From: a virus
Strand: one strand, 5' to 3'
Length of the DNA: 43,919 nucleotides
Virus record (IMG/VR): IMGVR_UViG_3300020190_000114
Location: 1-43,919 of that record
Shown: positions 2,357-16,549 of the stretch, piece by piece
Layout of the letters: every line of letters starts with the position of its first letter
Numbering within the stretch: the stretch's first letter is position 1
Made by a program: the position numbers and the translations under genes
The notes under the pieces: generated by a model
What the model saw: only the letters and a program-made list of their open reading frames with translations
Databases searched by the model: none
What the model was told of the DNA's origin: nothing

Positions 2357-3031
2357 TTACTTAGAGGGAATAGGAATCAGTTCATTCAATGCTTGCACAT
2401 GAGTCGGAACAAGTGGACGATCAGTAAGACTTTGCCATTTGTTTTGACTTTCCCGTTCAGCGGACTGTACGAACATTGGGGTAGAGGCAGCAATCACTTT
2501 GAACTTACTCTGTGCTGCGGCAAATCCATTATCCATAGGAATTTGCTTGGTGTACAAACACATATGCGCTATGTCTGCTGCATAGTTCTTGTATCTTTCG
2601 GACACATACAGTACTGCGTGTGCTGCGAGCATACCGAAGATTCTGTACCATCCATTGTTCAAGTCAACAATTGCTTGCTTCTTATTTCCATGAGAAATAC
2701 CAAGATACACGGCATCAGTATCATCCGGCACTTCTATCACAGGTACGAATGCTTCAGTTGCAAGAGCATCATCCTCCAACACAAGAACAGATCCCTTGCT
2801 TGCTGATAGCAAGGCATCAATGTGCGCTTGTCCACATCCCATGTAGTGTTTGCCAAACGCTCTGAGTTTAACAGCGGATAGGTTTTTTGGTGGTGGAATG
2901 ATCCTGCCTGGGATTCGCATATGCGAAGTGAATCCCAAGCGATCAAATTGCTCAGTCATTTGTTTGGCATTTGAAGTTGCTCGGTCTAGATTGATCCATC
3001 TAGTTTGTACATTACGAAGGTCAATTTTCAT
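2357..3031 (-). CDS. Glycosyltransferase family 25-like protein
   Basis: A 224-residue protein with the GT25 plan. The N-terminus RWINLDRATSN (residues 11-21) matches the I-N-L-x-R donor-fold opening, GCGQAHIDAL (65-74) resembles the G-C-x-x-S-H segment, and VLVLEDDAL (82-90) gives the E-D-D metal/donor site. GT25 enzymes (lipooligosaccharide galactosyltransferases and relatives) add sugars to surface glycans. In a phage the acceptor may be host envelope glycan, virion protein or DNA; the sequence does not say which. It starts immediately after regA, with GAGAGTGAC upstream of the ATG. Confidence 0.75.
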   Translation of the reverse strand: MKIDLRNVQTRWINLDRATSNAKQMTEQFDRLGFTSHMRIPGRIIPPPKNLSAVKLRAFGKHYMGCGQAHIDALLSASKGSVLVLEDDALATEAFVPVIEVPDDTDAVYLGISHGNKKQAIVDLNNGWYRIFGMLAAHAVLYVSERYKNYAADIAHMCLYTKQIPMDNGFAAAQSKFKVIAASTPMFVQSAERESQNKWQSLTDRPLVPTHVQALNELIPIPSK

Positions 3032-3896: not shown

Positions 3897-4152
3897 CTCG
3901 CACCACCAAAGCAATGTGATCCTGATGTACCAAGTCTAGATCACCGTAGTGATTGCCACGATTAGTCGCTAGTTCCCAATACACCATATCTCCCACACGA
4001 ATATCCTCGGTGATTCCACATCCAACCGCAACCACTTCAGCAAGTACAAAGTGACCCTTGGTATTATCATCCTTGTAGATGATTCCACCCTCGGTCTTCT
4101 TCTCTTTACCAAGATCGGTGCGTACAGCAACCCACTTACCAATAGGTCGCAT
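3886..4152 (-). CDS. GroES-like co-chaperonin (Cpn10 family)
   Basis: An 88-residue Cpn10-like protein. MRPIGKWVAVR aligns with the GroES N-terminus (xRPLxDRVxVx). KKTEGGIIYKDDNT corresponds to the GroEL-binding mobile loop with its G-G-I-hydrophobic motif. AEVVAVGCG, VGDMVYW and the C-terminal IALVV follow as in GroES. It would cap the host GroEL ring and help fold capsid or other proteins, as T4 gp31 does, although here the family is true Cpn10-like. The ATG overlaps the TAA of the methyltransferase (TAATG) and has a GGAG site. Its place between clamp-loader genes gp44 and gp62 is unusual. Confidence 0.8.
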   Translation of the reverse strand: MRPIGKWVAVRTDLGKEKKTEGGIIYKDDNTKGHFVLAEVVAVGCGITEDIRVGDMVYWELATNRGNHYGDLDLVHQDHIALVVRDAA

Positions 4153-4829
4153 TATGCTCTCCTCATGCAGAGCCATGCAACCTGAGTAAACTCAGATTTC
4201 ATATAAGGAATCACATCGGCTGGAACTTTCAAATCACTATCCCATGTTTCACACCAAAGCCAAAGATTCTTGTCTAACTTCTCTTCATTCGACATTGAAT
4301 TAAGTAGTTCTTTGTCAGGATGATAGTCATGTCCCATGATAACATCTCCTGATTTTAAGAGCGGGGAGAGAGCAGTCAATTCATGCATCTTGTTTGCACC
4401 ATCACACAGGACTATCGTAGTTCCTTCGGAAGCGATAATACTTGCAACCCCATCATGCTTTTCGGGAATCAATGTTGCTTCCCCATAGTTAAAGATGTTC
4501 TCTACTCGGAACTCAATCGCATCAGTAGAATATCCAAGAGATTCAGCGTTAGTCTTGCCTATGTTATGGATGTCCCAAGTAATGATTTTGGTTGAGTTCA
4601 TTCCTAGTTCATCTAGGGTGTCGCGTAGCAGAAGCGTCAGTCCTGCATGAGAAGTACCAATTTCAAGAACTCTGACTGGTTTAGTTTGTCTGAACAACTC
4701 CTTAAAGCATTCAGTGATATTGGGATGTTGCATGGTGATATATCCCTTGTACGAAAACCAACCTTGTCTAAGTAATTCTCTATCTACCATGTCACGAGAC
4801 GGCCCGAGCGTGTATGAAATTCTCCTCAT
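4152..4829 (-). CDS. Class I SAM-dependent methyltransferase
   Basis: A 225-residue Rossmann-type methyltransferase. Motif I is RVLEIGTSHAGLTLLL, the Asp of the next strand is in IITWDIHNIGK, and GTTIVLCDGANK and GDVIMGHDYHPD form later strands. The GxSxxGLTxxL loop and the C-terminal G-H-D-Y resemble the CmcI/cephalosporin-hydroxylase and rhamnosyl O-methyltransferase group, so an O-methylation of a sugar or small molecule is plausible. The substrate is unknown. The ATG at 4829 overlaps the gp44 stop (ATGA), so it is co-translated with the clamp loader. It and the GroES-like gene form a two-gene insertion between gp44 and gp62. Confidence 0.75.
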   Translation of the reverse strand: MRRISYTLGPSRDMVDRELLRQGWFSYKGYITMQHPNITECFKELFRQTKPVRVLEIGTSHAGLTLLLRDTLDELGMNSTKIITWDIHNIGKTNAESLGYSTDAIEFRVENIFNYGEATLIPEKHDGVASIIASEGTTIVLCDGANKMHELTALSPLLKSGDVIMGHDYHPDKELLNSMSNEEKLDKNLWLWCETWDSDLKVPADVIPYMKSEFTQVAWLCMRRA

Positions 4830-5773
4830 TTGAACTCGCACTCCATCATAATCTCGGTCAAGCAAGCAGTCATGTTGATCTCTGCATCGGCAACAAATGC
4901 TGCCTTGTACTGGTACTCTGCCAGAATCAGAACCAACTTCGGAATGCTAGACGGAGTAAAGCAATCGTACATGGACTCGTAAATCTTGCGAAACAGAGAT
5001 GCTGAATCAGCATCAGAGTTCTCTACAACCCACTTGCGAACCGATGTGAAGTCCTTGTCTTTCAAGGCAGAGATGAGTTCCTTGATCTTGATTTCACCAA
5101 GTTGAGTCAGGATACCCACATCAATCTTGCCAGACACCGAATACCGCTGCAACTCATTCAAGATGCGGCGGAAATCGGGGAAGTGCTTCATTATGAGTTC
5201 GACAAGCACCTTGTCATCGTATGCGACACCTTCGGCATCCAAGATGCCTTTGACTCGCTGAAGCATTTGCTTGGCGAGGGTGGGTCGTTCTTTGGTTGGG
5301 ATTTGGAAGTTGATGCAAGTACACCGCGATTGAAGCGGTTCGATGATCCTGTTCTTGAAGTTACAAGTCAGGATGAACCGGCAGTTCGCGCTGAACTCTT
5401 CCATGAATCCACGCAGAGCAGGCTGTGTGCTTTGGGCATTCGAGTAATCAAACTCGTCAAGAATCACAACCTTCTTGTTGCCTGACATGGATACCGTACT
5501 CGCAAAGTTTCGGATGCGAGTACGGAGGGTATCAATGTTTCCATCTTCTGAGCAGTTGACGATGATGCAGTCGCTATCCAGTTCGTTGCACAAGGAACGG
5601 GCAACTGTAGTCTTCCCGCATCCTGCTCCACCCGATAGCAGTAAGTTCTGCACCTCGCCCGACTCCACCATGTCGGTGAAAGTCTTCTTCATCGCAGACG
5701 GAAGAATGCAGTCCGCAATCACCTTTGGGCGGTACTTCTCCACCCAAAGGTATTCGGTTACCGTAGCAGTCAT
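4826..5773 (-). CDS. 44: Clamp-loader large subunit, gp44-like AAA+ ATPase
   Basis: A 315-residue AAA+ ATPase close to T4 gp44 (319 residues). LWVEKYRPKVIADC opens the clamp-loader fold, Walker A is GGAGCGKTTVA (48-58), Walker B is VVILDEFDYSN (102-112), ILTCNFKNRIIEPLQSRC (134-151) contains sensor 1 and the arginine finger SRC motif. Together with gp62 it uses ATP to open the gp45 ring and load it on DNA. The start is well supported by AAGGAG spaced five to seven bases from the ATG. The gp45 stop codon is part of that site. Confidence 0.95.
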   Translation of the reverse strand: MTATVTEYLWVEKYRPKVIADCILPSAMKKTFTDMVESGEVQNLLLSGGAGCGKTTVARSLCNELDSDCIIVNCSEDGNIDTLRTRIRNFASTVSMSGNKKVVILDEFDYSNAQSTQPALRGFMEEFSANCRFILTCNFKNRIIEPLQSRCTCINFQIPTKERPTLAKQMLQRVKGILDAEGVAYDDKVLVELIMKHFPDFRRILNELQRYSVSGKIDVGILTQLGEIKIKELISALKDKDFTSVRKWVVENSDADSASLFRKIYESMYDCFTPSSIPKLVLILAEYQYKAAFVADAEINMTACLTEIMMECEFK

Positions 5774-9408: not shown

Positions 9409-10572
9409 TCACTTTACAAGTTTAGGTTCAAATGCCTCAGTCTTTGATGATGATGGCGTCAAACCTATAGTCTTAACAAGGCTACGAGAAAGGGCAAGAA
9501 CGCCCGCATATGGATCTACATTGGCGCTTGGACGGCGATCTTCGATGTACAGCAGATGTGCCGCATCCGTGTTCAAAGGAACGGTAGGCACACACAGAGA
9601 TGCAGTACGATCACCAAATCCCCAAGTGAACTTGTTGAAGTCGCTGATTCCGCCTGTCTTTCCAACCAGGCGTTGCTCATTGCCTGCACCATATGCTGCC
9701 ATATGTTCGCGGTGATCTTCTCCAATGGTTTCGCAAATTGACTTGGCGAGTCCTGCATTTCCACTAGACTTGGTGTAGTTGTCCATGTACAGACGGAAGA
9801 TACATCCGTTACCATTCCATTCTGTGCCAGGAAAACTCTTTGGTGCATAACTGATTACACACCGAGGATTATCTCGATCTTCTGCCGTATTTTCCAACAG
9901 ATACCGCAAGATAATCAGATTGTCGCAAGCAGTCAGAGCATCAGTTTCTTCAGTAACAAATGACCATTGTGATAGGCAGATTGCTGCATTGTATGAATGC
10001 ATACTGATTCCTCTCCACGCACATCGGTCGTAGAAAGAAGCAACCAGTTCTCTGCCTCGTTGAAAGTCGCCAGAACCACCATAGTATCTGCCTTGAGGAC
10101 CAGGGAATACAACTTGGGGTTCTCCCTTTTCATTCTTTCCTACTGGCCAGCGATACGGTTGACGAGTATCAGGATCAATGAGTAAAGCATCCTGCTCGAA
10201 TCCAATCTTCACACTCTTCAAATCGTTTGTGCTGAGAAACTTTCGCAGATCAGCACGGGCATTAGATGCATGAGGAGTTCCATCTGCGGTTTGTACTTCA
10301 CACAACACAATACCCGAGTCGCGGGTCATACCTTCAAACATGAAATGTCTGATGGTACGAACGGGAACCAAGAACAGATCAGCATTATCTGTCGATGCTT
10401 GCTTGCAAGCAGAACCATCGAATCGCTGTGTCTTGGGAGTTTCTCCAACTGAGGTGTAGTTAGCACTACGAATAGTACCATCACCAGCCAACCAAATGTA
10501 AGTCCAATCCATTACTATAACTGGCTTCTTCTCATCATTTTCCACTTTCGCATACTCACTCTTCTTTGCCAT
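9409..10572 (-). CDS. Glutamine synthetase II-like protein with degenerate active site
   Basis: A 387-residue protein aligning along its whole length with eukaryotic-type glutamine synthetase (GSII). Shared signatures are TYIWLAGDGTIRS, FDGSA (51-55), LFLVP (66-70), VLCEV (89-93), GFEQDALL (124-131), FPGPQGRYYGG (156-166), GRELV, WNGNGC (252-257), and EDRRPSANVDP (344-354). Many catalytic positions are changed: the Glu of NAEV is Ala197, the Glu of QWEF is Ser204, the metal-binding His of GCH is Ile258, the flap Glu of GFHE is Gly307 and the second substrate Arg is Cys327. Glu126 and Glu344 remain. It is therefore probably not an active glutamine synthetase. It could regulate host enzyme, be a structural fold, or have a new activity. 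It starts by TAATG coupling to the methylase gene. Confidence 0.85.
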   Translation of the reverse strand: MAKKSEYAKVENDEKKPVIVMDWTYIWLAGDGTIRSANYTSVGETPKTQRFDGSACKQASTDNADLFLVPVRTIRHFMFEGMTRDSGIVLCEVQTADGTPHASNARADLRKFLSTNDLKSVKIGFEQDALLIDPDTRQPYRWPVGKNEKGEPQVVFPGPQGRYYGGSGDFQRGRELVASFYDRCAWRGISMHSYNAAICLSQWSFVTEETDALTACDNLIILRYLLENTAEDRDNPRCVISYAPKSFPGTEWNGNGCIFRLYMDNYTKSSGNAGLAKSICETIGEDHREHMAAYGAGNEQRLVGKTGGISDFNKFTWGFGDRTASLCVPTVPLNTDAAHLLYIEDRRPSANVDPYAGVLALSRSLVKTIGLTPSSSKTEAFEPKLVK

Positions 10573-12206
10573 TATGATCTCTCCTTTGGTTTGTAAAACA
10601 CATAAACAGGTTCATACTTCATGTAGTCACCATCAATCTTGCAATAGTTCTTGCACATGGGAAGACCTGTTTCTTCATCAAGTCGATTTTGCCCAGGCAT
10701 AGATTCCATCGCCATCTTCACCTTGTATTTATACACAAGTCCGAACTCTTCAAGGAATCTTCGTGAATCTTCTTCAAGTGGAAGATATTCCCCGCCAATT
10801 TGAATGTCTGCGATGTTCCATAACAAGTAGCGATCAGGCTTCAAGAACTCAGCACAAGTCTTCAGCGTTGGTCGCAGGAACCCATCACGCCAACTTTCAT
10901 ACGACGAACCATACTTCTTGTACGATTGGTTCTCGTCCTGAGAGTAGGCTTCTCTGTTGAAGTATGGAGGACTTGTGAAGATCATGTCGATCTTGCCCTT
11001 GTACTTCTTGAAGCGTGGATCTTTGCCAATCTCTTCTGAACCTAGTCTGTAGATTTCGTAGGTGTTGGTTTCGCTGAAGAACGGATTGCCTCGGTATGTC
11101 TTGGTATTGTAGAAATCTGCAACATCGGCATAACGAGGACGCTCTTCACCCGTGTCTTCGTCAATGTAGTACAGTTCAGGGTTTGGATCGGTTCCGATGT
11201 AATGAATCTTGCGATCATCGCGCACACTCATGGCGCCAAGAATACGACCTCCCCATCCCGATGAAGGATCGTAGATCACAAGCGGAGTCTTCTGCTCCTT
11301 GGCGTGTTCCGTGAACCGCTCGTACAGATACTTGGCGGTCATGGGTGGGAAGTTGTGTGCCACTTGAATGTATCCAATGCGGAACGCAGCAAACCCCTTC
11401 GGGAACACACGCTCGCCTTTCTTGTAAATGCGAATGGTGTATACCTTATCATCGGGCATGGCACTCACATCGAAAGTGGAGAAGTGCCGGTACTGCAACA
11501 CTCCTTCGTCCTTGAGTTTCTGAACCTGTTCTCGGGTGAGATTCAGAATGTCAGACTGATTCAGTTGGAAGTATCCTGTATTGTTGCCTTCACGAATCTT
11601 CACCTGTTCAAGCATGAAGTCGTAACCCTTGAAGATTTCCTTGTTGGTTTGGAATGCCTTGATCCAAGTCATTGCATCGGGCACAGACACAAGAGCAGGT
11701 TTAGGATTGTTACGCAAGCATGAGAGGGCGTGCATATACAGCGAGTCTCTACGGAAGTGACGCATTGATCCCTTCGCCATGCGATCAAGGAACCGATCTT
11801 CAGCAAACAGTTCATAGATGGAGTATCCATCATCCTTCTCGCTGTAGTTGATGCGAGTCTTCATCATGGTTGGAAACCATTGATCCACTTCAGAACCAAG
11901 CCTTGCCTTGTTCAGAATCACATCTTTGCCGATGTCTTCCAGTTCATCGTCAAACTCAAACGACTTCACAGGATACTCAGCCATCTTGTTCCACTCTTCA
12001 ATGATGTCTTCTTCAATCTTCCCGATGCGCGGAGGACATCCCTTGTTGTCCCAAATATCGACGACTGCCTTACGCATATTGACAACCCACTCACGGAACT
12101 TGTCCGCGTCCATCTCTAGCAATTCTTCAAAGGTGACATTTACTGGGTGAGTAAGGAGATGAGTGTTCTTCTCAAAGAAGGTTTTGTGCGCTTGTAGAGT
12201 TTCCAT
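10572..12206 (-). CDS. DNA methyltransferase, N4-cytosine/N6-adenine type
   Basis: A 544-residue protein. The C-terminal half carries an amino-methyltransferase: SAM-binding motif I is VIYDPSSGWGGRILGA (around residue 310), followed by YIGTDPNPEL, and catalytic motif IV is IFTSPPYFNRE (around 408). The S-P-P-Y form is typical of N4-cytosine enzymes but also occurs in N6-adenine enzymes. The N-terminal 300 residues (helical, with RHFRRDSLYMHALS) have no motif I recognise and may recognise DNA or another partner. No restriction nuclease gene accompanies it, so it is likely an orphan methylase that protects or marks phage DNA. Start and stop both overlap neighbours by TAATG. Confidence 0.82.
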   Translation of the reverse strand: METLQAHKTFFEKNTHLLTHPVNVTFEELLEMDADKFREWVVNMRKAVVDIWDNKGCPPRIGKIEEDIIEEWNKMAEYPVKSFEFDDELEDIGKDVILNKARLGSEVDQWFPTMMKTRINYSEKDDGYSIYELFAEDRFLDRMAKGSMRHFRRDSLYMHALSCLRNNPKPALVSVPDAMTWIKAFQTNKEIFKGYDFMLEQVKIREGNNTGYFQLNQSDILNLTREQVQKLKDEGVLQYRHFSTFDVSAMPDDKVYTIRIYKKGERVFPKGFAAFRIGYIQVAHNFPPMTAKYLYERFTEHAKEQKTPLVIYDPSSGWGGRILGAMSVRDDRKIHYIGTDPNPELYYIDEDTGEERPRYADVADFYNTKTYRGNPFFSETNTYEIYRLGSEEIGKDPRFKKYKGKIDMIFTSPPYFNREAYSQDENQSYKKYGSSYESWRDGFLRPTLKTCAEFLKPDRYLLWNIADIQIGGEYLPLEEDSRRFLEEFGLVYKYKVKMAMESMPGQNRLDEETGLPMCKNYCKIDGDYMKYEPVYVFYKPKERS

Positions 12207-13111
12207 TATGATTCCATTCTTTGCTGTACTTCAGTTTCACTAAGTCTGCGTCCAACCACCCAAAAGCAAGTACTCTTGTTCATGTCAATGTTCTCGCGCA
12301 TCCACTTGTGTGCCTTTGCTTCGTACAGATCGTCAAGGATTGTACCATCTTCTATCTTTTCCACAAGAGGTTTTCCGTACACGGTATTTAGGCAATGCAA
12401 CTCGTAGTCTGGCAGCGGATATCCTGTCATTGGATTTACCCACTTGTTGATGTTCTCGGTTCGCTTTGGACCAACACACAATCCAATCACTTTACCTACT
12501 CTGATACTGTACCGATGTATTCCTCGGAGAATGGCAGCAAAGTGAACTCCACTACCCACAGGAACAACTAATTGATCCAACTGGTTCGGTAGGTTGCCTA
12601 CCTGACTCTCAATGCCATCAATGATTGCGTCTTCTCTGTTTTCAATGTTATGGGTAAAGACTGCATCGTACAAGTTTTCAGTCTTAGCAATCTCTCGCAT
12701 TCTAGCAAGCACAGGACCGTGCATACCAGTACCACACACATTTCGTACATCCGCTCCAAGTGCTTTGGCATAACGCATCATGTGATGATTGTCTACGGTA
12801 TCGGGGGAACTTCCACCAATGCAAATGGTGCATGGTATGTTCAGGTCTTTGCACACTCTGGCTATGATTGTTCCTGTAGTGGAATGAACCTGCGAATGAG
12901 TGATCACTCCGCTATACTTGCTACGCAATTCCTCTTGTATGGGATACAGCAACTGGATTGCTTGTCTAACTTTACCACCATTCACATCTCCCGCCCCATA
13001 CGGGGTGTACATATCATCCCGCTTGTAGAACACGCCCCCCACATACTGCACAGGAGTGCGATTCATCACATGGGCGGGAAATCTATTTGAAACCTCGTAC
13101 TCTGTTTTCAT
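12206..13111 (-). CDS. Fold-type II PLP-dependent enzyme (ACC deaminase/D-cysteine desulfhydrase-like)
   Basis: A 301-residue protein of the tryptophan-synthase-beta PLP fold. FYKRDDMYTPYGAGDVNGGKVRQ (28-50) matches the K-R-D-D...G-G-N-K-x-R segment, with Lys47 as the expected PLP Schiff base. GVITHSQVHSTTGTIIARV replaces the usual Q-S-N-H motif, so the substrate pocket differs from ACC deaminase and D-cysteine desulfhydrase. CTICIGGSS and LVVPVGSGVHFAAIL (phosphate-binding glycine loop) follow. It should act on an amino acid or amino-acid-like group; which one is unknown. It sits between two DNA-methyltransferase-like genes with ATGA/TAATG overlaps, implying a shared pathway. Confidence 0.8.
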   Translation of the reverse strand: MKTEYEVSNRFPAHVMNRTPVQYVGGVFYKRDDMYTPYGAGDVNGGKVRQAIQLLYPIQEELRSKYSGVITHSQVHSTTGTIIARVCKDLNIPCTICIGGSSPDTVDNHHMMRYAKALGADVRNVCGTGMHGPVLARMREIAKTENLYDAVFTHNIENREDAIIDGIESQVGNLPNQLDQLVVPVGSGVHFAAILRGIHRYSIRVGKVIGLCVGPKRTENINKWVNPMTGYPLPDYELHCLNTVYGKPLVEKIEDGTILDDLYEAKAHKWMRENIDMNKSTCFWVVGRRLSETEVQQRMES

Positions 13112-13773
13112 ATAGGTAAAGATGCCTTAGAATGATTGAATGTAGGATCGTAGAACTTTTCTTCCAGTTCACATCCCCACCACTTGCGACCAGTAGTGCT
13201 GGCAGCAAGCAGAACAGGGGCAACACCCGCAAACGGATCTACAACCAAATCTCCTGGCTTGGTAAGGTTTTCAATCACATACTTGCAGAAGTCTTGCGAC
13301 CACACAGATTGATTTAGTACCTTCTCTTGCTGATCCACATAGATGTCTCGTAGCCAGTCTCCCTTGCGGTGGATCACTCCCTCGCTTGTATACACAAGCA
13401 TATGTTGGAAAGTGAAGTAGTACATATCGCGCTTGCCCACTTCGTTTCTGACCACAACTTTGTAGTCCTTCAGATGAAGTCCCTCGTTCTCTAGGCATTG
13501 CGCGTACCACATATGATTCGACAGAATGAAACCATTCACCCTACGATCAGTCTGGCACACCACAACAAAGCCAGTAGGTTTCACAATACGAGCAAACTCC
13601 TGCATTGCCTTCTGCTGAAACAGCCGATACGAATCAGTCTCGTCTTTACCAAACGGAGTCTGAGACAGGTCTGGGCATGAGGTAAACACTAGGTCTACTG
13701 ATTCGGATGGGATACTAGGCAGATAGTCAAAGGCATCACCTAGCACATATGAGTTCTCTTGAAATTTTGTCAT
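13108..13773 (-). CDS. DNA methyltransferase-like protein with SCPD in place of SPPY
   Basis: A 221-residue beta-class amino-methyltransferase fold. The N-terminus YVLGDAFDYLPSIPSESVDL is the usual lead-in to motif IV, but the catalytic tetrapeptide reads TSCPDLSQ (31-38) instead of TSPPY. The C-terminal motif X/I part is intact: SQDFCKYVIENLTKPGDLVVDPFAGVAPVLLAA, then WWGCELEE. The loss of the second Pro and the aromatic residue suggests altered target, substrate or lost catalysis. It is coupled by ATGA overlaps to gp46 upstream and the PLP enzyme downstream. Alternatives include a family of methylases in which this variant is normal. Confidence 0.75.
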   Translation of the reverse strand: MTKFQENSYVLGDAFDYLPSIPSESVDLVFTSCPDLSQTPFGKDETDSYRLFQQKAMQEFARIVKPTGFVVVCQTDRRVNGFILSNHMWYAQCLENEGLHLKDYKVVVRNEVGKRDMYYFTFQHMLVYTSEGVIHRKGDWLRDIYVDQQEKVLNQSVWSQDFCKYVIENLTKPGDLVVDPFAGVAPVLLAASTTGRKWWGCELEEKFYDPTFNHSKASLPI

Positions 13774-15494
13774 GGTGTAATCCTACTGAAGTTGTTCTTC
13801 TTCTCAAACGACATGGTGTGTTCAAACTTGTCTACCAACTGGTCTGCCTTGTGAGAGATCACAAACACATTCGCATTGATACCAAAGGAGTGGAGAATCT
13901 TCATAAACTCTTCAGTTCCTGCGGTGTCTAGCGATGAATCGAACACCTCGTCCAAGATGAGCAGATTGGTGTTTGCGCTGTTCTTGATTCGTGCAATCTC
14001 ACGCCACGCGAGAAGCAAAGCCAAATCAATACGCATCTTTTCACCCTCGCTGAAACTCATATACGAGAAGGTATCGCGGTGTCTACTCTTGATGGTTTCA
14101 TTGAACTCTTCGTCAAGTGTAAAGTTGGCAAAGAAATCCATCGTGTTCAGATACTTGTTGATGGTCTTGTTGATGATGGGTAGATAGTAGCGAATGATCT
14201 TTGCCTTGATGCCGCTATCCTTCAGTAGCGATGCTGCTACACTATAGTAGTGCATCTCTTCCACCAGGCTATTCTTGGATGACTCGTTCTTGTTCAAGTC
14301 TCCCTCGAAATCCACCAATCGCTTCTGATGATCCGTGTCTTCAGTTTCCTTGTTCTGAATGGCTTTGTTCTCTTTGCTGAGTTTACCGATGTAGGAGTTG
14401 CACGCCGTGATGGTGCTGTTCGCCTCCATCGTCTGCGTGTTCAGCGTTTCTAGTTCGGTAGATATCTCTTCATACTCTTCAATCTGAGTTCGCTTGGTTT
14501 CAATCTCGCTAACAATGGCACCAACTGCTTCGTTCAGTTCACCCTGCTTGCTTTTCTTCTTGCACAGTAATCCGTGAATAGGTTGACTAGCCTTGTCGAT
14601 GGACTGATGACAAGTGGGGCATACCTCATTGTTGTCAAAGAATGACAACTCCTCTCCTACCTTTTTGCGATTGGACTCTAGTTGCTTATGAAAGGTTTCT
14701 AGTTTAGTGATCTGCTTTAGCAAAGCAACCTTTCCTTGTAACTTGACCTTTACTTTCTGAATCTGCTCATTCAGGACAATCAGTTCTTCCTGCTTATCTT
14801 CAATCAACGATTCAGAGCGGGCGATCTCTTTCAGATTTCCTTGCACCTGTTCGTCAGTCTTGCTCTTTAGTCCTGCGATCAAGTCTTTCTGAGCGCGAAT
14901 AGATTCGCGTAGAATTGCGATCTTGCGTTCGTTGTCTGCAATCTCTTCTTTGAGAGTAGACATCTTTGCCTTGAGAATAGTGTTCATGGTAGAGAACACA
15001 TTGATGTCAAGGATATCTTCAATCACAGCACGGCGATCAGATGCCGGCAACTGCATGAATGGTACAAATGAAGAACTGCCTAGAATCACCACCTGAGTGA
15101 ATGACTTGTAGTTCATTTTCAGAACCTGCTCTTCAAGCATCTTCTGATAGTCCTTTGTGGTGGCGTGCTGATCCATCAGGTTGCCGTTCTTCCATACCTC
15201 AAAGCGGTTTGGTTTGATACCACGAACTACGCGGTAGGAATCATTGGCGATGGTGAACTCCACTTCCACCAAGCAATCTTTCTCATTGATGCTGTTCACC
15301 AACTGAGGAAGATTGATCTTCCTGAATGGCTTTCCGAACAATCCAAAGGTGATGGAATCGAGCAGAGCAAACGACTTACCATGCCCATTGCTGCCTGAAA
15401 CAAGCACCATCTTGGCTTTGTTCAGTTGAATCTCGGTGAAGTTATTTCCGAACGATCCAAAGTTCTTGAATCGAACCTTCGTGAAGGTAATCAT
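13770..15494 (-). CDS. 46: Recombination endonuclease subunit gp46 (SbcC/Rad50-like)
   Basis: A 574-residue SMC-like ATPase. Walker A is GSNGHGKSF (34-42), the central part is coiled coil (EEIADNERKIAILRESIRAQ onward) with a zinc-hook CPTC near residue 290, and the C-terminus has SFSEGEKMRIDLALLLAW (ABC signature) and LLILDEVFDSSLD (Walker B and D-loop). Its size is close to T4 gp46 (560). With gp47 it resects DNA ends to start recombination-dependent replication and degrades host DNA. The start overlaps the gp47 stop (ATGA), as expected for a complex made in fixed ratio. Confidence 0.95.
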   Translation of the reverse strand: MITFTKVRFKNFGSFGNNFTEIQLNKAKMVLVSGSNGHGKSFALLDSITFGLFGKPFRKINLPQLVNSINEKDCLVEVEFTIANDSYRVVRGIKPNRFEVWKNGNLMDQHATTKDYQKMLEEQVLKMNYKSFTQVVILGSSSFVPFMQLPASDRRAVIEDILDINVFSTMNTILKAKMSTLKEEIADNERKIAILRESIRAQKDLIAGLKSKTDEQVQGNLKEIARSESLIEDKQEELIVLNEQIQKVKVKLQGKVALLKQITKLETFHKQLESNRKKVGEELSFFDNNEVCPTCHQSIDKASQPIHGLLCKKKSKQGELNEAVGAIVSEIETKRTQIEEYEEISTELETLNTQTMEANSTITACNSYIGKLSKENKAIQNKETEDTDHQKRLVDFEGDLNKNESSKNSLVEEMHYYSVAASLLKDSGIKAKIIRYYLPIINKTINKYLNTMDFFANFTLDEEFNETIKSRHRDTFSYMSFSEGEKMRIDLALLLAWREIARIKNSANTNLLILDEVFDSSLDTAGTEEFMKILHSFGINANVFVISHKADQLVDKFEHTMSFEKKNNFSRITP

Positions 15495-16549
15495 ACAGAC
15501 AGACTCTCCATGTACAGATCGCGCACGATGCGCTTCAGCATGGACTTGTCATGCACTTCTTCCATACCATCAATCTCTTTGTTGATTAGACCAAGCGTGT
15601 CTAGTGCCATATCTGCTGCGGGTTCGCCTGTACTGGTGTCCGGGTTCTGTTCGACAATGGTTACACCCAAGGCAGGGGCGGTATAGATGCCATCCAAGAA
15701 CTTGTCAAACACATATGGCTTAGTCTTGGCATCCACGAACACCTTTACAAAGGTGTTTGCATACCGCGAGAAGTCTGCGTTCTCTAGCAGTTTGCTGTAG
15801 TCATGCCGCGAATCATCGTATCGAATGGCATGAAACATCTTGTGGGGGTTCTCAACGAACTCCAGTTCGCGGGTTTCAGTATCAAGCACATGGAATCCCT
15901 TGCGGTCTTCCAAGTCGCTGAAGGTGATCTGATACTGCGTACCCAAATACTGCACATTTCCCCCTCCGTGCTTGTGATGGAAGTGGCCCGACAGAACCAT
16001 CTCATAGCGGGTAAGCAGATTAGCAGGCATCCCGCCTTCAAATTTTACCCCACGCATAACCTGATAGCCTTCCAGTTCAAAGTGTCCGCATATCACAGGA
16101 CACTTGCTCTTCTTGATAAAGCGTAGGAAATCTTCGTGGTTGTTCTTGTTGATCCATGGCACCATCGCAACGCGCAGAGAGCCAAACTGCAACTCAATCG
16201 GCTCTTCGTAAATGATGAAGTTGGTATAGCGTTCTCCAAACAGTTCCTTTGGAGAGTTCACTAGGTTGGTGTTCTTGTAGTACACATCGTGATTGCCGAG
16301 AATGCAATGCACGGTCATGCCACGCTGTAACAGCGGCTCCATGAACCTCGTTCGCACCTGATTCAGCGTTTGGAAGTTCACGAACTTGCGGCGATCTAAC
16401 AAATCACCCAAGTGCAGCACGGTGTCAATGCCGTGCTTGTCGCAGTAAGGAAAGAACACCTCATCAAAGAACTTGAAGAAGTACTCACCAAATACTGGCG
16501 AATCAGACCTGGCGCCAAAGTGCGTATCGTTGATAATGGCTAGTTTCAT
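15491..16549 (-). CDS. 47: Recombination endonuclease subunit gp47 (SbcD/Mre11-like)
   Basis: A 352-residue calcineurin-type phosphoesterase. Metal-binding motifs are INDTHFGARS (6-15), LHLGDLLDRRKF (45-56), LGNHDVYYKN (near 84) and LSGHFHHKHGG (near 186). T4 gp47 is 339 residues. It is the nuclease partner of gp46. This is the first gene of the gp47-46-methyltransferase-PLP-methylase-GS-like unit, driven by the promoter at 16570-16598. Confidence 0.95.
   Translation of the reverse strand: MKLAIINDTHFGARSDSPVFGEYFFKFFDEVFFPYCDKHGIDTVLHLGDLLDRRKFVNFQTLNQVRTRFMEPLLQRGMTVHCILGNHDVYYKNTNLVNSPKELFGERYTNFIIYEEPIELQFGSLRVAMVPWINKNNHEDFLRFIKKSKCPVICGHFELEGYQVMRGVKFEGGMPANLLTRYEMVLSGHFHHKHGGGNVQYLGTQYQITFSDLEDRKGFHVLDTETRELEFVENPHKMFHAIRYDDSRHDYSKLLENADFSRYANTFVKVFVDAKTKPYVFDKFLDGIYTAPALGVTIVEQNPDTSTGEPAADMALDTLGLINKEIDGMEEVHDKSMLKRIVRDLYMESLSV

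Follow-up and report, generated by a model that had tools for sequence, protein, structure and literature searches.

A PLP-enzyme and methyltransferase module of T4-like aquatic phages as a candidate pathway for DNA-base hypermodification

What might be made by an operon in which two methyltransferase homologues flank a PLP enzyme, and does the glutamine synthetase-like gene that closes the set take part in the same chemistry? The question is raised by positions 9409-13773 of the window, the whole 43,919-nucleotide stretch analyzed here (IMG/VR record IMGVR_UViG_3300020190_000114), where four intact open reading frames are found, all on the minus strand and directly 3' of gp46. The features of the locus are as follows:

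15491..16549, minus strand: gp47-like nuclease subunit, first gene of the operon (similarity by recognition; synteny; junction)
13770..15494, minus strand: gp46-like recombination nuclease subunit, 5' neighbor of MT1 (recognition; synteny; ATGA overlap)
13108..13773, minus strand: MT1, 221 aa, beta-class amino-methyltransferase homologue (PF01555, N6_N4_Mtase, 1.5e-15)
12206..13111, minus strand: PLP, 301 aa, fold-type II PLP enzyme of phrog_3650 (PALP, 1.5e-13; phrog_3650, 2.5e-30)
10572..12206, minus strand: MT2, 544-aa methyltransferase with a C-terminal class I domain (PF01555, 2.3e-7; AlphaFold model)
9409..10572, minus strand: GS-like, 387 aa, full-length GlnII homologue without catalytic metal ligands (Gln-synt_C, 8e-6)

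The two upstream genes are ones that we take to be gp46-like and gp47-like on similarity by recognition. The junctions read ATGA at gp47/gp46, gp46/MT1 and MT1/PLP and TAATG at PLP/MT2 and MT2/GS-like, and the GS-like gene is followed by a 38-base gap and orf8264. Reading frames and junctions were read directly, and they bear out an earlier note on this DNA, which had described a four-gene cassette joined to gp46 by ATGA or TAATG overlaps. Since the order gp47-gp46-MT1-PLP-MT2-GSL-orf8264-rnh recurs in about a dozen IMG/VR contigs, the arrangement is not due to chance. The genes are strongly conserved, MT1 and MT2 to the level of gp46/47: median dN/dS values, which are approximate because dS is close to saturation, are 0.03 for MT1 and MT2, 0.04 for gp46/47, 0.085 for PLP and about 0.13 for GS-like.

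Linkage was counted over 16 clusters of PLP genes from IMG/VR phages, defined at 75% identity. In 12 of the 16 clusters, 500 bp or less separate MT1 from PLP, with both gene orders represented and the strand always shared; MT2, the SPPYF methyltransferase, lies within 200 bp in seven clusters and within 2 kb in ten. One or the other methyltransferase is near PLP in 14 clusters, the next most frequent neighbors being gp46/gp47 (7/16); the two clusters with no methyltransferase neighbor include at least one genome that encodes MT2 elsewhere. A fourth partner is present in some lineages, namely an aspartyl-hydroxylase-type 2OG oxygenase (5/16) or a glutamine synthetase (2/16), and no transporter, NRPS-like or carrier gene recurs among the PLP neighbors of the 16 clusters. 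The module sits with gp46/47 or, in other phages, with gp43/gp44. The neighborhood search that the earlier note had suggested thus finds co-location far beyond this phage, but it redraws the combination: PLP is persistently linked with MT1 and/or MT2, which form the core, there is no fixed four-gene set, and the GS-like gene, with a GS near PLP in only two clusters, is a lineage-specific add-on.

The same note had called the first gene a variant methyltransferase, and the variation lies in a motif conserved as S-x-P-D-x-S-Q. Along its whole length MT1 is homologous to the beta-class DNA amino-methyltransferases (CcrM, MboIIA, rotifer N4CMT), and DNA methyltransferases come first among its PDB profile matches (N4C methyltransferase 8S9M, 1.4e-14; CcrM, 3.9e-14). 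The SAM-binding motif I of these enzymes, D-P-F-x-G, is kept as DPFAG and is invariant or nearly so across homologues. Motif IV reads FTS-C-P-D-L-S-Q in the window; whereas the beta-class enzymes present [S/D/N]PP[Y/F/W] at this position, all 16 aligned diverse MT1 homologues present S-[C/L/P]-P-D-[L/I]-S-Q, and the canonical form is absent. A search of genomes from 84,980 cellular species returned MT1 in two MAG contigs only, one of them a phage contig. The locus could nevertheless consist of two ordinary DNA methyltransferases, of the m6A or m4C anti-restriction kind, that share an operon by chance with auxiliary metabolic genes (PLP, GS), as the homology of MT1 and MT2 to DNA amino-methyltransferases, the frequency of orphan methyltransferases in phages and a GS that is lineage-specific and also found alone in megaphages would allow. 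This account is unlikely, however, given that 12 of 16 clusters keep PLP next to MT1 even though gene order is inverted among them, that motif IV of MT1 is invariant yet non-canonical, and that relatives of PLP are located in hypermodification loci. Assignment of the locus to a defense system was rejected, the PADLOC matches being to generic MTase_II models only.

The C-terminal class I domain of MT2 (residues ~287-540) carries DPSSGWGGRILGA and TSPPYF, with DPSSGWGG at 313 preceding TSPPYF at 411, that is, motif I before motif IV. An AlphaFold model built on 34 homologues reached a pLDDT of 81 (a shallow-alignment model with a pLDDT of 39 was discarded), and Foldseek and VIA searches with it returned class I methyltransferases, the best VIA matches being the RNA m2G methyltransferases Trm11/TrmN/Trm14 (Z ~15). 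PDB structural matches are confined to the class I core, with none over the N-terminal ~270 aa, and gp1 of Mycobacterium phage Vincenzo is among the BFVD matches. The substrate signals of MT2 therefore differ, its sequence families pointing to DNA and its closest solved folds to RNA m2G methyltransferases, and since the latter include tRNA enzymes, an RNA target is still conceivable for this protein. Modification of RNA (tRNA or rRNA) or protein by the module as a whole, for example as resistance to host anticodon nucleases, would agree with these structural matches, with the aminocarboxypropyl groups that occur in tRNA and rRNA, and with the solved relatives nearest to the 2OG partner, which hydroxylate amino acids. 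We regard it as improbable: the fold is common to all class I N-methyltransferases, DNA enzymes lead the profile matches of MT1, the operon lies inside a replication and recombination block, and the PLP and oxygenase relatives accompany DNA-modification genes.

The PLP enzyme matches ACC deaminase 1F2D among PDB profiles (1.7e-12). It shares fold II with ACC deaminase and D-cysteine desulfhydrase (TIGR01275), and the catalytic GGK and C-terminal YE-x-K align, but the substrate loop, QSN in those enzymes, is VHS-P/T in PLP; a plain ACC deaminase was discarded as an assignment at 26.5 bits versus a TIGR01275 cut-off of 289.4. A profile of the aquatic-phage enzymes scores 64-147 bits on PLPs of hypermodification-type phages and 13 bits on E. 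coli DcyD, and profile and tree group PLP, with moderate support, with the Ackermann, Montesquieu and Vincenzo PLPs and not with cellular enzymes. Were the product of the genes a modified nucleotide or a small molecule in free form, with the methyltransferases alkylating the small molecule, the resemblance of PLP to ACC deaminase and D-Cys desulfhydrase and the intact GS kept by sister phages would be explained; this is nonetheless very unlikely, because the most conserved parts of the module are two DNA-type methyltransferases and recurrent transporter, NRPS-like or carrier neighbors are missing.

The GS-like protein is homologous at full length to GlnII, matching plant GS among PDB profiles (1.1e-52) and the GlnII model at 1.9e-50, under that model's cut-off. 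It differs from GlnII by E131>D, E192>A, E199>S, H249>I, E297>G and R316>C, mostly throughout the window clade, so that the n1 site is left without metal ligands, n2 without its histidine and the ammonium site without its Glu, one Arg being lost as well; E129, R291, E331 and R332 are retained in most of the clade. In sister phages L090 and L093, this position is occupied by an intact GS. An intact homologue is also found in megaphages, where it stands alone among neighbors unrelated to the cassette, and it was consequently set aside as cassette evidence. The protein might still be an active, altered enzyme that forms an amide or phosphoryl-amino bond and completes the pathway, since its fold is kept under purifying selection, the four residues above persist and its ancestor at this locus was intact. 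We doubt this, as the window clade has lost all n1 ligands together with H249, E297 and R316, and most modules are without a GS. Because these metal- and ammonium-site residues are lost and a GS is so rarely found near PLP, a ligase step is unsupported and the idea that the module depends on GS as its ligase was dropped. Hence, the description "degenerate GS-like" stands for a GlnII homologue without catalytic metal ligands and is not supported as regards a bond-forming role; the window-clade protein has ceased to be a glutamine synthetase and probably serves as a subunit with a structural or binding role.

Relatives of the module in better-known phages were then compared. In Glutamicibacter phage Montesquieu, the PLP homologue MONT_41 has as direct neighbors a gene annotated as alpha-glutamyl/putrescinyl thymine pyrophosphorylase and a pair of P-loop nucleotide kinases (PF18751), with an annotated pyrimidine hydroxymethylase nearby. 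The amino acid:DNA transferase ADDT is encoded by PLP-bearing Ackermannviridae and by Cygsa01 (7e-46 to 2e-62), and Ackermannviridae DNA contains 5-(2-aminoethoxy)methyluridine (PMC11721090). Mycobacterium phages Vincenzo and AlanGrant combine an MT2-like gene, ParB-annotated in Vincenzo, with PLP; a PF18751 kinase adjoins them in Vincenzo, though its presence there may be constant across this group of phages. In LilMcDreamy, a homologue of the oxygenase adjoins ADDT (2.7e-12). A Mom-like GNAT was considered for the N-terminal half of the oxygenase and abandoned, there being no significant Pfam match. The thymidylate-synthase-like hydroxymethylase family PF00303 was not detected in the window and 15 related contigs, which are fragments of 20-126 kb. 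In the same fragmentary records, PF18751, present in Vincenzo, LilMcDreamy and Montesquieu, was not detected, and PF18724 (ADDT) was not detected in the window and gave no more than a sub-threshold match in G001; it was detected in comparison genomes W02, W04, W05 and W06. Since the records are fragments, these missing enzymes are no proof of absence.

Co-location, together with PLP and 2OG oxygenase families that belong to recognized hypermodification loci, makes an amino-acid-derived modification of DNA the best-supported reading, and this part of the earlier proposal is retained without GS-like as its ligase. We therefore lean towards MT1, PLP and MT2, with GS-like as an add-on, being a post-replicative pathway in which a group derived from an amino acid is put on bases of phage DNA and tailored there, most likely to shield that DNA from nucleases. 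To our knowledge, known amino-acid hypermodifications begin from a hydroxymethyl pyrimidine; as no hydroxymethylase, kinase or ADDT was seen in the fragmentary records of the window and related contigs, the group is probably attached by a different chemistry. The attachment point may be the exocyclic amine of A or C, as reached by amino-methyltransferase folds, and not 5-hydroxymethyluracil. Targeting would fall to MT2, a transferase whose SPPYF motif is normal. In MT1, an Asp appears to occupy the place of the aromatic side chain against which a flipped base is normally stacked, and the enzyme may transfer or act on a charged, non-methyl group such as an amino-acid substituent or, for instance, the aminocarboxypropyl group of SAM, a candidate put forward from chemistry. 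Remodeling of the alpha-amino-acid end would be the next step, carried out by PLP; in other lineages the 2OG oxygenase would hydroxylate the amino-acid group, and sister phages might use their intact GS to provide glutamine or to convert a carboxylate to an amide. The full scheme, in which a new S-x-P-D class of transferase (MT1) modifies the amine with SAM aminocarboxypropyl or an amino acid in T4-like aquatic phages, independently of 5-hydroxymethylpyrimidines, and PLP and, by lineage, an aspartyl-hydroxylase-type oxygenase or GS tailor the product, is tentative. Hypermodified DNA is one of the chief means by which phages withstand restriction and CRISPR nucleases, and it is also a source of useful chemistry. 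The module occurs across T4-like phages that are abundant in marine and fresh waters and appears to arrive at amino-acid decoration along another route, by way of enzymes with methyltransferase folds, one of which has a rewritten active site all but confined to phages in the genomes searched; the chemistry of the module is open to nucleoside mass spectrometry in the cultured relatives Vincenzo/AlanGrant and LilMcDreamy.

Among the papers covered by a literature search, none describes a phage DNA-modification module of methyltransferase and PLP enzyme. Besides the enzyme families compared above, two known systems come close. With the amino-acid thymine hypermodification of ViI and other Ackermannviridae (5-NeOmdU), the module has the PLP family phrog_3650 in common, the role of PLP in ViI modification being assigned from genome context, and LilMcDreamy joins a module-type oxygenase to ADDT; that pathway, however, combines a PLP enzyme with a P-loop kinase and aGPT-PPlase or ADDT, whereas the window and its relatives, as fragments, show two amino-methyltransferase-type proteins instead. 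The second is the CmoA/CmoX/CmoY carboxymethylcytosine system of Synechococcus phage S-B43, where an altered transferase and an amide ligase build a DNA hypermodification, CmoX being a C5-cytosine methyltransferase that uses carboxy-SAM and CmoY an asparagine-synthetase-type ligase (PMC12783734). By its published description, it resembles the present module in that a phage operon encodes a repurposed DNA-methyltransferase fold that adds a non-methyl group, with tailoring to follow, and differs in pairing a C5-cytosine methyltransferase with a ligase, where the window has amino-methyltransferase folds, PLP, and a GS-like or 2OG protein.

Recognised by sequence, what we take to be a T4-like phage gene set (gp44-47 type replication genes and a gp55-like sigma factor) is encoded on this 43.9-kb IMG/VR virus fragment, where gp47 and gp46 lie upstream of four minus-strand genes:

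13108-13773, minus strand: MT1, amino-methyltransferase homologue (Pfam N6_N4_Mtase)
12206-13111, minus strand: PLP, fold-type II PLP enzyme (Pfam PALP)
10572-12206, minus strand: MT2, SPPYF methyltransferase (Pfam N6_N4_Mtase)
9409-10572, minus strand: GS-like gene, GlnII homologue (Pfam Gln-synt_C)

An ATGA or TAATG overlap, read from the sequence, joins each gene to its neighbour, and these junctions, with the Pfam families, bear out the earlier note's account of four overlapping genes behind gp46. Elsewhere the window encodes a GlcNAc-type glycosyltransferase (164-1492; PF11397, 3.2e-70), another ORF that resembles a glycosyltransferase but has no Pfam match (2357-3031) and a very long Thr/Pro-rich repeat protein that runs off the contig end (39089-43918). 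A CmcI-like methyltransferase/hydroxylase gene adjoins gp44 (4152-4865), its place being taken in a related contig by a DNA methylase (L144:4257-5036; PF01555, 2.9e-45); this slot seems to swap modification genes.

Profile searches recovered relatives of PLP (28-47% identity) and MT1 (41-71%) in many, mostly marine, phages. After clustering of PLP at 75% identity, MT1 directly adjoined PLP, always on the same strand, in 12 of the 16 clusters, with the orders MT1-PLP and PLP-MT1 found in six each. An MT2-type SPPYF methyltransferase lay at most 200 bp from PLP in seven clusters and at most 2 kb in ten, and MT1 or MT2 lay within ~6 kb in 14; the next most frequent neighbours were gp46/gp47 (7/16). 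Arrangements include gp43-MT2-oxygenase-PLP-MT1 (contig L129), MT2-PLP (L059/L060) and gp46-MT1-PLP-MT2-GS (L090/L093), a SET-domain protein (PF00856, 3.3e-10) being inserted between PLP and MT2 at L090:9607-10044. Mycobacterium phage Vincenzo carries PLP plus an MT2-like gene annotated ParB, and the L042 genome has PLP alone and MT2 elsewhere, after gp46; MT1 was not found in that 126-kb record. Since the linkage outlasts rearrangement and spans distant phage groups, it argues for a joint function of the linked genes, and the co-location in other phages on which the earlier proposal depended was indeed found. Between gp47 and gp46, the L042 genome also encodes a PurZ-type 2-aminoadenylosuccinate synthetase (phrog_1211, 2.8e-60) together with an adenylosuccinate lyase (L146:2407-3498 and L141:3373-4776); by gene content it is likely a 2-aminoadenine (Z-genome) phage retaining PLP and MT2.

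The block gp47-gp46-MT1-PLP-MT2-GS-like-orf8264-rnh recurs in about 12 IMG/VR contigs, with 90-97% identity for MT1 and MT2 across this close group. With dS near saturation, dN/dS was ~0.03 for both, as low as for gp46/gp47, 0.085 for PLP and 0.13 for the GS-like gene; judged from sequence, all four genes are maintained. MT2 is broken into two overlapping frames in a contig almost identical to the window (L001:8906-10536), a frameshift or assembly error, and ~1 kb of additional sequence between gp46 and MT1 (L008:6372-7345) does not occur in the near relative L009.

The description of MT1 as a variant methyltransferase holds: in 16 of 16 diverse members motif IV reads F-[T/S]-S-[C/L/P]-P-D-[L/I]-S-Q, which, compared with SPPY, retains the serine and second proline and replaces the aromatic residue with aspartate. 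The SAM motif DPFAG is retained, and the closest solved relatives are DNA amino-methyltransferases (8S9M, CcrM, MboIIA). The family looks phage-borne, because a scan of genomes from 84,980 species gave just two MAG contigs, one equal in size to IMG/VR contig L133 and the other also encoding a PLP of cluster 4. The MT2 model (34-sequence alignment, pLDDT 81) predicts a C-terminal class I methyltransferase domain; its top VIA matches were Trm11/TrmN/Trm14 (Z ~15), and pithovirus 'N4C methyltransferases' and Vincenzo gp1 are among the viral proteins matched. Structural matches in the PDB cover this domain and leave the N-terminal 270 residues unassigned. By itself, the predicted fold is compatible with DNA or RNA as target. 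The model also matched a Satyrvirus protein labelled glutathione synthase (BFVD A0A3G5AD75, E 6e-11), perhaps a methyltransferase fused to an ATP-grasp domain.

PLP belongs to phrog_3650 and is distantly similar to ACC deaminase, scoring far under that family's cut-off. The aquatic-phage PLP profile gave 64-147 bits for the PLPs of Ackermannviridae, Cygsa01, Vincenzo and Montesquieu and only 13 bits for E. coli DcyD, and in a tree the phage PLPs formed a moderately supported group separate from the E. coli enzymes. These phages supply the functional context of the family. The Montesquieu PLP gene has an annotated thymine pyrophosphorylase on one side and a pair of P-loop nucleotide kinases (PF18751) on the other, with an annotated pyrimidine hydroxymethylase nearby. 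Three PLP-bearing genomes, those of Cygsa01 and the Ackermannviridae ChubbyThor and phiA8-29, encode an amino acid:DNA transferase (ADDT); Ackermannviridae DNA contains 5-(2-aminoethoxy)methyluridine (PMC11721090). Vincenzo gene 4 (NC_028934 2562-3128), annotated as terminase small subunit and, in KR080194, as adenylate kinase, matches PF18751 (7.5e-74) and is probably misannotated.

In five of the 16 PLP clusters, the gene overlapping PLP encodes an Asp/Asn beta-hydroxylase-domain protein of ~370-400 aa, whose closest solved relative is L-proline cis-4-hydroxylase. Its only cultured-phage homologue is gene 4 of Mycobacterium phage LilMcDreamy, beside an ADDT gene and after a ParB-annotated gene. 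LilMcDreamy genes 2-4 (L149:855-3759) comprise a gene annotated queuine tRNA-ribosyltransferase with only a weak Tet_JBP match, the ADDT (gene 3) and this Asp-hydroxylase-type oxygenase (gene 4), and look like a seemingly unreported amino-acid DNA-modification locus. GS is the partner in two clusters and is intact in L090/L093. The window-clade protein retains R291, E331 and R332; because E131, E192, E199, H249, E297 and R316 are lost in all or nearly all members, it is predicted to be an ex-glutamine synthetase kept for another role rather than a working ligase. It is thus degenerate, as had been noted, and its proposed part as the bond-forming ligase of the cassette is unsupported.

Among the window and related contigs, which are fragments, no thymidylate-synthase-like hydroxymethylase, no PF18751 kinase and no ADDT above cut-off was found. 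If these absences hold, the amino-acid group would not be on 5-hydroxymethyluracil, and proteins of amino-methyltransferase fold would be natural candidates for attachment. MT2 would then target a base amine, MT1 would transfer or alter a charged, amino-acid-type group and PLP would remodel its alpha-amino-acid end; the oxygenase may hydroxylate the group in some lineages, and in another lineage GS may formerly have provided an amide or catalysed its formation. Aminocarboxypropyl transfer from SAM is a candidate, chemically simple route by which methyltransferase folds could install an amino acid. Of the DNA-modifying cassette with a GS ligase put forward earlier, the ligase step falls away, and DNA modification is the best-supported reading, which we consider somewhat probable. 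The MT1-PLP-MT2 module was not found described in a literature search whose coverage excluded the closest prior survey (Iyer 2013). An altered DNA methyltransferase opening a hypermodification pathway has precedent in CmoX/CmoY (PMC12783734), and the module is classed with phage amino-acid DNA hypermodification, as a variant.
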